From: Bacteroidia bacterium
GTDB lineage: Bacteria; Bacteroidota; Bacteroidia; J057
Length of the DNA: 49,132 nt
Assembly (NCBI GenBank): GCA_030731845.1
Contig: JANQTF010000162.1
Location: forward strand, 1 to 49,132
Direction: 5' to 3'
Shown here: positions 2,346 to 5,211 of the stretch, in pieces
Layout: every line of letters starts with the position of its first letter
How positions within the stretch are numbered: the first letter of the stretch is position 1
The notes under the pieces: generated by a model
Database searches by the model: none
The model's input: the letters and a program-made list of their open reading frames with translations, nothing else
Told to the model about the DNA's origin: nothing
Made by a program: the position numbers and the translations under genes

Positions 2346-3311
2346 TCAAAACCCCAGGGATTTGAGTCCCAGGCCAGCTGTTTCTTCGAGGCCAAACATG
2401 AGGTTGGCGTTTTGGACAGCTTGCCCGGAGGCTCCTTTCACGAGATTGTCGATCATGGAGATCACAAGGAGTTGGTCTTCGTGTTTTTGCAGGTGAATGA
2501 GGGCTTTGTTGGTATTGATCACCTGCTTGAGGTGCGGGTCTTGGCGTGTCACATGGGTAAAAGGATGATCGGCATAGAATGCTTCGTAGCGGTCATAGGC
2601 TTCCTCCTCGCTCCAGGCACAAGTGGTGATGCTCGTGGCGAATATCCCTCGGGGAAAATCTCCCCTCAGGGGCACAAAGTGCACCCGTTTTCCATGATTC
2701 TGGAGGCGTTGGGTGCTTTGGTAAATTTCGGGGAGGTGTTGGTGGGTAAATGCCTTGTACACGCTCAGGTTGTTGTTGCGCCAGGAGAAGTGCGTGGTGG
2801 CGCCGGGTTGTTGGCCAGCCCCGGTAGCGCCTGTGGTGGCATTGACCACGATGTCGTGCGTAATGCCGCCGTGGGCGGCGAGAGGCAACAGCGCAAGCTG
2901 TATGGCTGTGGCAAAACACCCCGGATTGGCGACCCGCGTCGCCGTGCGGATTCTGTCTCGCTGCCACTCAGGCAGGCCATAGATGAAGGCATTCTCTGGC
3001 GATTCCATCCGAAACTCGTTGCTCAGGTCGATGATCTTCACTGAGTCTGGCAGCACCACGCTATCGAGAAACGGCTGCGTGTGGCCATGGCCACTACACA
3101 GAAACAGCAGATCCACCTCCGTGCTCACCTCTGCGGTGAACCTCAGATCGGTTTCTCCGATCAGATCCTGATGCACCGCCGTGACAGCCTTCCCCGCCTG
3201 ACTGCTGGAATGCACAAATGCGATCTCGACCTGAGGGTGGTGCAGGAGAATCCGCAGAAGCTCCCCCGCCGTGTAGCCCGCCCCGCCGATGATGCCGATG
3301 GAAATGTTCAT
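2346..3311 (-). CDS. argC: N-acetyl-gamma-glutamyl-phosphate reductase (ArgC)
   Basis: NADPH-dependent reductase making N-acylglutamate semialdehyde. The ATG at 3311 (MNISIGIIGG) is preferred; the reading frame can be extended only to a TTG four codons earlier. The 321-residue product opens with the dinucleotide-binding GIIGGAGYTAGEL (6-18). The catalytic cysteine is Cys132 in NPGCFATA. The sequence YGLPEW follows the family pattern. It lies downstream of the GxxExxY cassette: the outermost repeat copy ends only about 20 bp before the start codon, so the inserted repeats now form the immediate upstream region of argC. Confidence 0.95.
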   Translation of the reverse strand: MNISIGIIGGAGYTAGELLRILLHHPQVEIAFVHSSSQAGKAVTAVHQDLIGETDLRFTAEVSTEVDLLFLCSGHGHTQPFLDSVVLPDSVKIIDLSNEFRMESPENAFIYGLPEWQRDRIRTATRVANPGCFATAIQLALLPLAAHGGITHDIVVNATTGATGAGQQPGATTHFSWRNNNLSVYKAFTHQHLPEIYQSTQRLQNHGKRVHFVPLRGDFPRGIFATSITTCAWSEEEAYDRYEAFYADHPFTHVTRQDPHLKQVINTNKALIHLQKHEDQLLVISMIDNLVKGASGQAVQNANLMFGLEETAGLGLKSLGF

Positions 3312-3337
3312 AGTGTTGGTCAAGTCGTTTTTTTTCT

Positions 3338-3377
3338 GCTAAGACTTTTTCTCACAAAGGTCTCAAAGGCATGCACA
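3338..3377 (+). repeat. 40-bp direct repeat, outer copy
   Basis: First copy of an exact 40-bp repeat beginning GCTAAGACTTTTTCTCACAA and ending CATGCACA. The second copy is 58 bp further on at 3396-3435. The sequence before this copy (CTGCT instead of CCGCT) is more eroded than before the inner one, which suggests an older duplication or a remnant end. Confidence 0.8.
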
Positions 3378-3395
3378 CAGAGCACTTTTTTCACC

Positions 3396-3435
3396 GCTAA
3401 GACTTTTTCTCACAAAGGTCTCAAAGGCATGCACA
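3396..3435 (+). repeat. 40-bp direct repeat, inner copy
   Basis: Second copy of the 40-bp repeat, overlapping the left inverted-repeat arm of the GxxExxY cassette. The following CACAAAGG-TCTCAAAGG units run into the 3' end of the GxxExxY gene: its TGA stop codon (3444-3442) is supplied by a CCTTTGAGA unit read on the minus strand. Confidence 0.8.
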
Positions 3436-3441
3436 AAGGTC

Positions 3442-3828
3442 TCAAAGGATCATTCTTTTGATGCCATCTTTCATTCGAGAAACATAAAAATTGAGAATGT
3501 ATCCGAGGGAAACACCAGAAAGTCTCATGTAGGTTAACAGTTGAGCTTCATGAACTGGAGCCAGACTTTCCACTGTTTTTACCTCAATAATCACAAGGTC
3601 TTCTACCATCACATCAATCCGAAAAGCAGTGTCGAGTTTTACTTCTCCATAGATGAGAGATACAGGAAGTTGGCGATCGACCTTGAACCCGAGCTTCTCT
3701 AATTCATATACCAAGCAGGCTTCATAGGCACTCTCTAGCAAGCCCGGACCTAACTGAGTATGAATTCGAAAGGCAGCATCAAGAATCGCCTTCCCGACCT
3801 TTTCTCGATCATGTCTAGGCTGGTTCAT
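3442..3828 (-). CDS. GxxExxY protein (PDDEXK_3-type putative nuclease)
   Basis: Small protein of 128 residues when started at the ATG at 3828 (MNQPRHDREK). A longer reading to 3897 would only translate the flanking repeat. The name-giving motif is G29-LL-E32-SA-Y35. A PD-(D/E)XK-like core follows: Asp72 in FRIDV, then E82-V-K84 in IIEVKT, and Gln96 in HEAQLLTY. The family is annotated as a predicted nuclease of unknown function. The start codon lies directly behind a CACAAAG repeat unit and the stop lies inside another, so gene and repeats form one unit. It is co-oriented with the arg operon and is probably transcribed from the arg promoter. Confidence 0.88.
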   Translation of the reverse strand: MNQPRHDREKVGKAILDAAFRIHTQLGPGLLESAYEACLVYELEKLGFKVDRQLPVSLIYGEVKLDTAFRIDVMVEDLVIIEVKTVESLAPVHEAQLLTYMRLSGVSLGYILNFYVSRMKDGIKRMIL

Positions 3829-3886
3829 CTTTGTGATCTTTGTGTTCTTACTTTGTGTCCTTTGTGAGAAAAAGCGGTGAATACAC

Positions 3887-5077
3887 TCACTCCTCATTCA
3901 CCAACCGATGCAGCTTGCCCTGCATCCCGAGGATCTTCGTGAAGCCCTTCACATCGTCGCCGGACCATGCGCGGTTCATCTCGCCGTAGGTTCCAAATTT
4001 CGCCGACATCATATCATATTCAGACTGCACGCCGATTGCCTGAAACTGATACGGAGACAGCCTCACGCGCACTTTGCCCGTGACAGACTCCTGCGTGTCG
4101 GTGAGAAACCCTTCGATGTTGCGCATCACAGGCTCGAGAAACTGCGCCTCGTGGAGCATCATGCCGTAGGAATCGGCGAGTTGTTTTTTCCAGTGCTGCT
4201 GAAACTTGGTGAGCACATGCTTTTCGAGCAGGTGATGAGCTTTGATAAGAATAAGCGGCGCTGCTGCCTCAAAGCCCACGCGGCCCTTGATGCCGATGAT
4301 GGTGTCGCCCACATGCACATCGCGGCCCACTGCATAGGGCGAAGCAATCGCCTGCAAAGCCTGTATGGCAGCCACGGGGTGCTCATAGCGCGTGCCGTTG
4401 ATGGCGATAGGCTCTCCTTGCTCAAATTCGATGATCACTTCCTCGGTGCCAGTGGCAGTGAGCTGTGTGGGCCAGGCCTCTTCGGGCAGCGTGTCCCAGC
4501 TGTTGAGGGTTTCTTTGCCGCCTACACTTGTGCCCCACAGACCCTGATTGATGGAATATTGTGCCTTGGCCCACTCGTAGGTCACGCCTTTTGTTTTGAG
4601 GTAGTCGATCTCTGCTTCGCGGCTGAGCTTGAGGTCGCGGATCGGAGTGAGGATCTCCACGCCGGGAGCCATGACCTCAAACACGAGGTCAAACCTCACC
4701 TGATCGTTGCCGGCACCGGTGCTGCCATGAGCAATATATTTTGCGCCAACTTTGTGCGCATACTGAGCGATTGCCATGGCCTGAAAGGTGCGCTCAGCGG
4801 AAACAGAGAGCGGATAGGTGTCATTTTTCAACACATTGCCAAACAGCAAATATCGAAGGCACTGCTCGTAGTAGGGCTTGATTTCGTCGAGAACAACATG
4901 ACTGGCCACTCCCAGAGATTCTGCACGGTTGGCAATATGTGCGAGGTCATCAGCAGAAAAACCACCTGTATCGACGATGGCAGTGTGTACTTCGAGGCCT
5001 TTGTCTTCAGCGAGATATTTTACACAAAATGAGGTATCAAGACCACCAGAAAACGCGAGTACTACTTTGTCGGGCAT
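3887..5077 (-). CDS. argG: Argininosuccinate synthase (ArgG)
   Basis: ATP-dependent ligation of citrulline and aspartate to argininosuccinate. It has 396 residues from the ATG at 5077 (MPDKVVLAFSGG). The 24 extra residues of the longer frame are unlike the family and are left out. The PP-loop AFSGGLDTS (8-16) is complete, and the family blocks AHGSTGAGNDQVRF and SINQGLWG are present. An unacylated citrulline is needed here, so a deacylase (ArgE-like) must be encoded outside the window. The order GNAT-argG-argC-argD-argF' is a common Bacteroidota arrangement. The GxxExxY cassette begins 6 bp after the stop codon. Confidence 0.96.
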   Translation of the reverse strand: MPDKVVLAFSGGLDTSFCVKYLAEDKGLEVHTAIVDTGGFSADDLAHIANRAESLGVASHVVLDEIKPYYEQCLRYLLFGNVLKNDTYPLSVSAERTFQAMAIAQYAHKVGAKYIAHGSTGAGNDQVRFDLVFEVMAPGVEILTPIRDLKLSREAEIDYLKTKGVTYEWAKAQYSINQGLWGTSVGGKETLNSWDTLPEEAWPTQLTATGTEEVIIEFEQGEPIAINGTRYEHPVAAIQALQAIASPYAVGRDVHVGDTIIGIKGRVGFEAAAPLILIKAHHLLEKHVLTKFQQHWKKQLADSYGMMLHEAQFLEPVMRNIEGFLTDTQESVTGKVRVRLSPYQFQAIGVQSEYDMMSAKFGTYGEMNRAWSGDDVKGFTKILGMQGKLHRLVNEE

Positions 5078-5211
5078 TGTGAAAAAGATTGAATGAATGG
5101 AGTGTTGGAAGTGCGAAAGTGAACAAAAAAATAGAGACTTGCGGAGCATGGTGGCTATCGCAAGTCTCTGAAGGGGGCAGAACGAGCACTCGTTTTGCGA
5201 AATATACAGAC

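Follow-up and report, generated by a model that had tools for sequence, protein, structure and literature searches.

RAYT genes are always flanked by inverted REP sequences, and the REP and RAYT phylogenies agree (PMC2817692); REPINs are hairpin doublets, and RAYTs have been described as single-copy genes (PMC3116915). The elements analysed here, which carry genes of the GxxExxY family, resemble the REPIN-RAYT system in several respects: the gene lies between copies of its own repeat in inverted orientation, extragenic space is scattered with single repeats and with hairpins that lack the gene, and the phylogenies of repeat and protein agree. On the other hand, the RAYT enzyme is a Y1 (HUH) transposase, whereas GxxExxY is a PD-(D/E)XK nuclease; the REP is a single palindrome, whereas GxxExxY arms string together units of 7-10 bp in tandem; and GxxExxY genes are multi-copy (up to 20), unlike the single-copy RAYTs. 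Because the defining Y1 enzyme is absent, we do not regard the GxxExxY element as a member of the REPIN-RAYT system.

Two further systems share parts of this anatomy. The 23S rRNA intervening sequences (S23p, TIGR02436; PMC4990558) also hold a small orphan gene between complementary ends, and in the Coxiella copy tandem heptamers adjoin the start codon (PMC4990558). However, S23p is a four-helix bundle from another family, whereas GxxExxY has a nuclease fold, and the known S23p copies sit in rRNA and are excised as RNA by RNase III. The MITEs of DDE insertion sequences are, like the GxxExxY hairpins, short gene-less inverted-repeat elements dispersed between genes. Yet the target-site duplication that goes with DDE mobility, searched for at a length of at least 6 bp, was present in none of 94 GxxExxY elements (2.3% in mismatched controls), and no DDE-type transposase tied to GxxExxY arms was found.

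The locus under study lies in a 49,132-nucleotide stretch of DNA from a Bacteroidia bacterium, hereafter the window. In minus-strand order, it comprises argG, a GxxExxY gene encoding 128 aa, and argC (Table 1). A preliminary description had seen this gene as packed in imperfect inverted repeats between argG and argC, with a 6-bp indel between the arms, a start codon following a CACAAAG unit and a stop codon formed by a repeat unit. We can confirm this observation, since the window coordinates, the arms, a shuffle test and the indel all check out. The 5' arm reads TTCACCGC-TTTTTCTCACAAAGGACACAAAGTAAGAACACAAAGATCACAAAG; the two arms have 22 of 24 bp in common, plus the TTCACCGC tip, with the indel (TAAGAC) separating these, and the arm cores align with a score of 19, as against a best score of 14.5 in 2000 dinucleotide shuffles (0/2000 as good). 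The likely ATG (3828) stands directly 3' of the last CACAAAG unit and the TGA stop (3442-3444) within the CTTTGAGAC unit of the 3' arm. The mechanically called ORF (3442-3897, 151 residues) starts at 3897, inside argG, which is not the start of the GxxExxY gene. Besides, the 3' arm is doubled as a direct repeat (3328-3380 versus 3386-3438, 92% identical), a duplication that the preliminary description had not separated. No Rfam family matches the window region. The start of the contig (window 2-25) is itself an arm-type repeat, a CTCTGTGCCCTCCGTGCCTCCGTG array, and assembly breaks probably fall in repeats of this kind.

Table 1. Features of the argG-argC region, in window coordinates.
Feature	Coordinates	Strand	Remarks
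argG	3887..5149	minus	upstream neighbour of the GxxExxY gene, same strand
5' arm	3829..3881	minus	four CACAAAG-type units; outer tip TTCACCGC at 3874-3881
GxxExxY / PDDEXK_3 nuclease gene	3442..3828	minus	TIGR04256 E=2.6e-39; PF13366 E=2.6e-38
3' arm	3390..3448	minus	inverted relative to the 5' arm; outer tip GCGGTGAA (3390-3397 on the plus strand)
Second, direct copy of the 3' arm	3328..3380	minus	92% over 53 nt
argC	2346..3311	minus	downstream neighbour of the GxxExxY gene, same strand; likely ATG 3311

We compared this junction with that of eight other family members carrying argG. Homologues of argG (68-72% identical) adjoin argC in family members. In four of the eight, the two genes abut or lie within about 20 bp of each other (L067, L068, L071, L072); in two, the junction holds gene-less inverted tandem arrays of other units (L065 in G005 and L066 in G001, with AGTGTTNT and CAGGATGCAGG units); in one, L069 (identical to locus L052), the junction is taken up by a GxxExxY cassette whose arms are CACAGAG; and in the last, argG is located elsewhere (L070). 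Since gene-less AGTGTTNT and CAGGATGCAGG arrays occupy it as well, the junction has been struck repeatedly by different element types. L052 is 66% identical to an element of another family, compared with 53% to that of the window, and the arms differ, which disfavours vertical descent of both cassettes; judged from these sequences, they are probably independent arrivals. The preliminary description had considered that the gene might be fixed at this locus across the family. It is not, as the junctions of relatives vary.

For a broader view, an arm score was obtained for each GxxExxY locus by aligning its upstream flank with the reverse complement of its downstream flank. Among 131 loci from the same taxonomic class, the median score was 22, compared with 12 for flanks of different loci, and 81 of the 131 scored at least 20, as against 4.3% of mismatched pairs and 1 of 37 control genes. 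About 38% of these loci fell below 20, and 30 of them below 16; given these many low scores, some GxxExxY copies are without detectable arms. A second set comprised 67 loci in named genomes, mostly from other phyla and spanning about ten (Chromatiales, Desulfobacterota, Planctomycetota, Verrucomicrobiota, Acidobacteriota, Chloroflexota, Chlamydiae, KSB1 and others), and 41 of these scored at least 20 (6.7% of mismatched flanks). The concern that homologues would turn out to have no such repeats was thus not borne out in either set. The commonest arm unit is CRCNRAG, with spacers of 1-3 bp. At two variable positions of this unit, a left arm agrees with its right arm in 93% and 90% of cases, as against an expectation of about 50%; part of this excess reflects the way in which the arms were identified, by alignment. 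Covariation between orthologous arms (15 compensated pairs, 1.7 expected under uniform independence) is weak and confounded by degenerate positions. The third GxxExxY copy of the window's genome (L002, G000:C150) has an ACAGGAT-type sequence upstream, near the contig end, and no CACAAAG arms.

Genes of the TIGR02436 family in the same genomes (L004, L179-L207) have inverted tandem arms of another style (GAGTATTGAGTATT, AGGTTCTAGGTTCTAG). An arm score of at least 20 was reached by 16 of 26 TIGR02436 loci and by 1.8% of mismatched pairs, and this second orphan gene family may use the same arm strategy.

The idea that the repeats would always be of the TTCACC...CACAAAGG type proved wrong: the unit varies by protein clade and is inherited with the gene. 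Across loci, we found CRCNRAG, ACAGATTA, ACAGGAT, TACGAAT, CATATAAGG, ACTATGATG and other units. In non-syntenic pairs from different host families, arm k-mer similarity correlated with protein identity (rho 0.43), with a maximum of 0.17 in 999 permutations (0/999). Within one genome, proteins less than 0.35 identical have unrelated arms (mean cosine about 0.06), while proteins more than 0.6 identical in different genomes have similar ones (mean 0.35). By these comparisons, the arm unit tracks the protein family tree rather than the host genome, and arms and gene are inherited together. One genome counts against so simple a model: the single gene of G118 has CGCAGATT arms, and its dispersed repeats are of the CGCAAAG type instead.

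Copies at different sites reveal where the unit ends. One genome contains L088 and L101 at two separate sites; their match, at 90%, runs from TGCCAC up to the mirrored tip, where it stops. Likewise, the match between L096 and L118 spans TTAACCC to the mirrored tip, with none beyond. At several occupied sites, congeners with flanks 72-90% identical are without the cassette, albeit, at 77-90% identity, too diverged for insertion points to be placed at base level. The spacer of L122 differs among four congeners: one has a gene cassette there, one a TACGAAT hairpin without the gene, one a lone ACAGATTA array, and the fourth nothing. As to position, in 61 elements between co-directional neighbours the median distance of the outer tips is 6 bp from the stop of the upstream gene and 15 bp from the start of the downstream one. 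The spacing in the window is similar, with 5 bp from the argG stop to the outer 5' tip (3882-3886) and 16 bp from the outermost 3' arm copy to the argC start. Comparison of these copies shows a mobile unit bounded by its own arms. The preliminary description had likewise taken gene and repeats for one unit that inserts into spacers, and this reading stood up well, with arms bounding near-identical copies and the junctions of sister species empty or gene-less. Of the two marks it had expected at such sites, empty sites were indeed present, in argG-argC spacers and at congener sites, but target duplications were not.

Occurrence of GxxExxY is patchy (96 of 149 related genomes), with 1 to 20 copies. 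A triple CRCNRAG pattern had 1508 matches in 95 genomes with GxxExxY and 2 in 53 without. As in REPIN-RAYT systems, where repeats are abundant only in the presence of the enzyme, at least one match was found in 64 of the 95 compared with 1 of the 53 (Fisher 1e-16), although such genome counts overstate independence because the genomes are related. Part of the matches are the genes' own arms, the total being far above two per gene, and the reversed triple pattern is almost absent. Contrasts within families are better evidence than the raw counts: in twelve families with both kinds, every member lacking GxxExxY had zero triple-unit matches. Dependence of the repeats on the gene is what these genome comparisons show. 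In the part of the window's genome that was examined, the 3' arm of the window recurs as a single copy at about eleven other places, and the reversed arm at none; the genome also contains one complete gene-less palindrome (L008/L291).

In G046, composite palindromes of about 165 bp, with outer arms GTAACTACTCAG/CTGAGTAGTTAC, enclose a CGCAAAG hairpin (L385-L413); about 40 such palindromes were counted, with identities to one query of up to 99%. We had considered these hairpins as clean deletion derivatives of the gene-bearing L378; longer flanks, however, put most of them inside the larger repeat with GTAACTACTCAG ends, and for this reason they are no proof of trans-mobilisation. The larger palindromic repeat may have been moved by something else. 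In two other genomes (L349-L355 in G133 and G094), single arms form head-to-tail arrays of 3-5 copies without inverted partners, and in G133 such arrays lie on both sides of a GxxExxY pseudogene (L351).

The window protein (P0001) matches TIGR04256 with 134.2 bits (profile positions 3-116 of 116; curated cut-off 35 bits) and PF13366 with 131 bits. In a Pfam scan, P0001 matched only PDDEXK_3, plus Cas4 below threshold; there was no match to Y1 (PF01797). E55, Y58, D95, E105 and K107 (P0001 numbering) do not vary among 38 homologues. With a conserved D ... E-x-K, a helical E and a matching fold in the structure model (pLDDT 90), P0001 has the predicted hallmarks of the PD-(D/E)XK superfamily. 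The best Foldseek match of the model was Cas4 SSO0001 (4ic1, E 4.3e-3), and lambda exonuclease was also found. The modelled P0001 thus looks like a minimal core of these exonucleases, with which it shares core fold and active site by weak Foldseek (E 4e-3 or worse) and Cas4 profile matches; because TM-scores are about 0.44, the relation is one of shared superfamily only. Cas4 has an Fe-S cysteine cluster, whereas the two cysteines of the P0001 ORF (C5, outside the likely gene, and C61) form none, and the window neighbours are argG and argC rather than the cas1/cas2 genes that accompany Cas4. Over fourteen pairs, some of them copies from a single genome, dN/dS ranged from 0.01 to 0.31, and by this measure the GxxExxY protein is under purifying selection.

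Taken on the sequence evidence, the window element is rather probably one copy of a widespread mobile palindromic element in which a stand-alone GxxExxY nuclease gene sits between inverted arms. The best reading is that of a REPIN-RAYT-like system with a nuclease in place of the tyrosine transposase. Each arm is a short tandem array of the 7-10 bp unit belonging to that nuclease's clade. Where the DNA is single-stranded or supercoiled, the arms could form hairpins or a cruciform. The nuclease would recognise its cognate unit and make cuts close to or right at the arm tips, so that the element is released or nicked, and host repair or replication may then copy gene-bearing and gene-less forms into new spacers, a step that parallels the one proposed for RAYTs and REPINs, with the nuclease replacing the Y1 transposase. 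The whole arm-to-arm unit enters tight co-directional gene junctions without target duplication, and both single arms and hairpins without the gene, alike in style, build up in the same genomes. That the nuclease recognises and cuts the arms, and that the element is then copied, we infer from co-occurrence and conservation.

Alternatively, the hairpins may have spread first, with the nuclease gene entering their loops by cutting and use of a repair template, as homing endonucleases do. Such homing, which we consider unlikely, would fit the presence of gene-bearing and gene-less TACGAAT hairpins in the same spacer of G078 and G145, the near-identical gene-less hairpins adjoining L037, and L378 in G046, which has both arms and a loop segment in common with gene-less hairpins. 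However, copies at different sites have both arms and gene in common, and within one genome the unit type differs between copies and follows the protein; genes therefore do not simply land in any host hairpin. Homing and a mobile arm-bounded unit could also coexist.

It is also conceivable, though rather unlikely, that GxxExxY is a domesticated host nuclease that uses the dispersed repeats as genome landmarks in repair or maintenance, its mobility being a relic. This would agree with the strong purifying selection at long-held sites, as in the L053/L077 pair (dN 0.014, dS saturated), and an element kept at one place for so long, under such selection, is as compatible with a benefit to the host as with selfish spread. 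Yet the patchy occurrence, the variable copy number and the repeated, independent occupation of sites argue against it.

Less probable is that the palindromic repeats are moved by another enzyme (a Y1 transposase of the IS200/IS605 or RAYT type, or a DDE transposase), with GxxExxY as a passenger that gains from its place in the loop. While many of these genomes do have Y1 transposases and the G046 hairpins are nested in a larger repeat, the presence of Y1 (PF01797, IS200/RAYT) had no effect on repeat abundance once GxxExxY was accounted for (p=0.81), 14 genomes with Y1 and without GxxExxY had zero repeats, and no PF01797 match was found in the repeat-rich G001 and G029; we reject Y1 as the main driver. 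Besides, a passenger need not share the phylogeny of the arms, and target duplications are absent. Finally, that the arms are an RNA device (a terminator, processing hairpin or translation insulator) which makes a cargo gene tolerable in an operon is improbable: the elements do occupy tight co-directional junctions, and the same anatomy is seen in S23p, the four-helix family of the 23S intervening sequences, but arm mismatches show no G-U preference on the transcript strand (64 versus 93 of the A-C type), gene-less and single arms are dispersed, and Rfam gives no match.

The GxxExxY family is common, with passing mentions and no assigned function in the literature searched, which likewise gave no description of GxxExxY with repeats (preprints and most subscription journals lay outside the search). 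The link to its own repeats provides a first testable role for this family and explains a class of dispersed CACAGAG-type repeats. The pattern of gene plus repeats is suggestive of a mobile element of a type not described before, in which a nuclease rather than a transposase is the driver. Whether GxxExxY elements form a novel class of autonomous mobile DNA, with a lone PD-(D/E)XK nuclease that, without a transposase, would recognise its own inverted tandem arms and carry its own gene as well as gene-less hairpins into operon junctions in many phyla, each clade evolving its own unit, we regard as evenly balanced. If the nuclease does act on the arms, this would be a transposase-free mobile element that parallels RAYTs with an unrelated enzyme, and the clade-specific repeat units offer ready enzyme-site pairs for testing.
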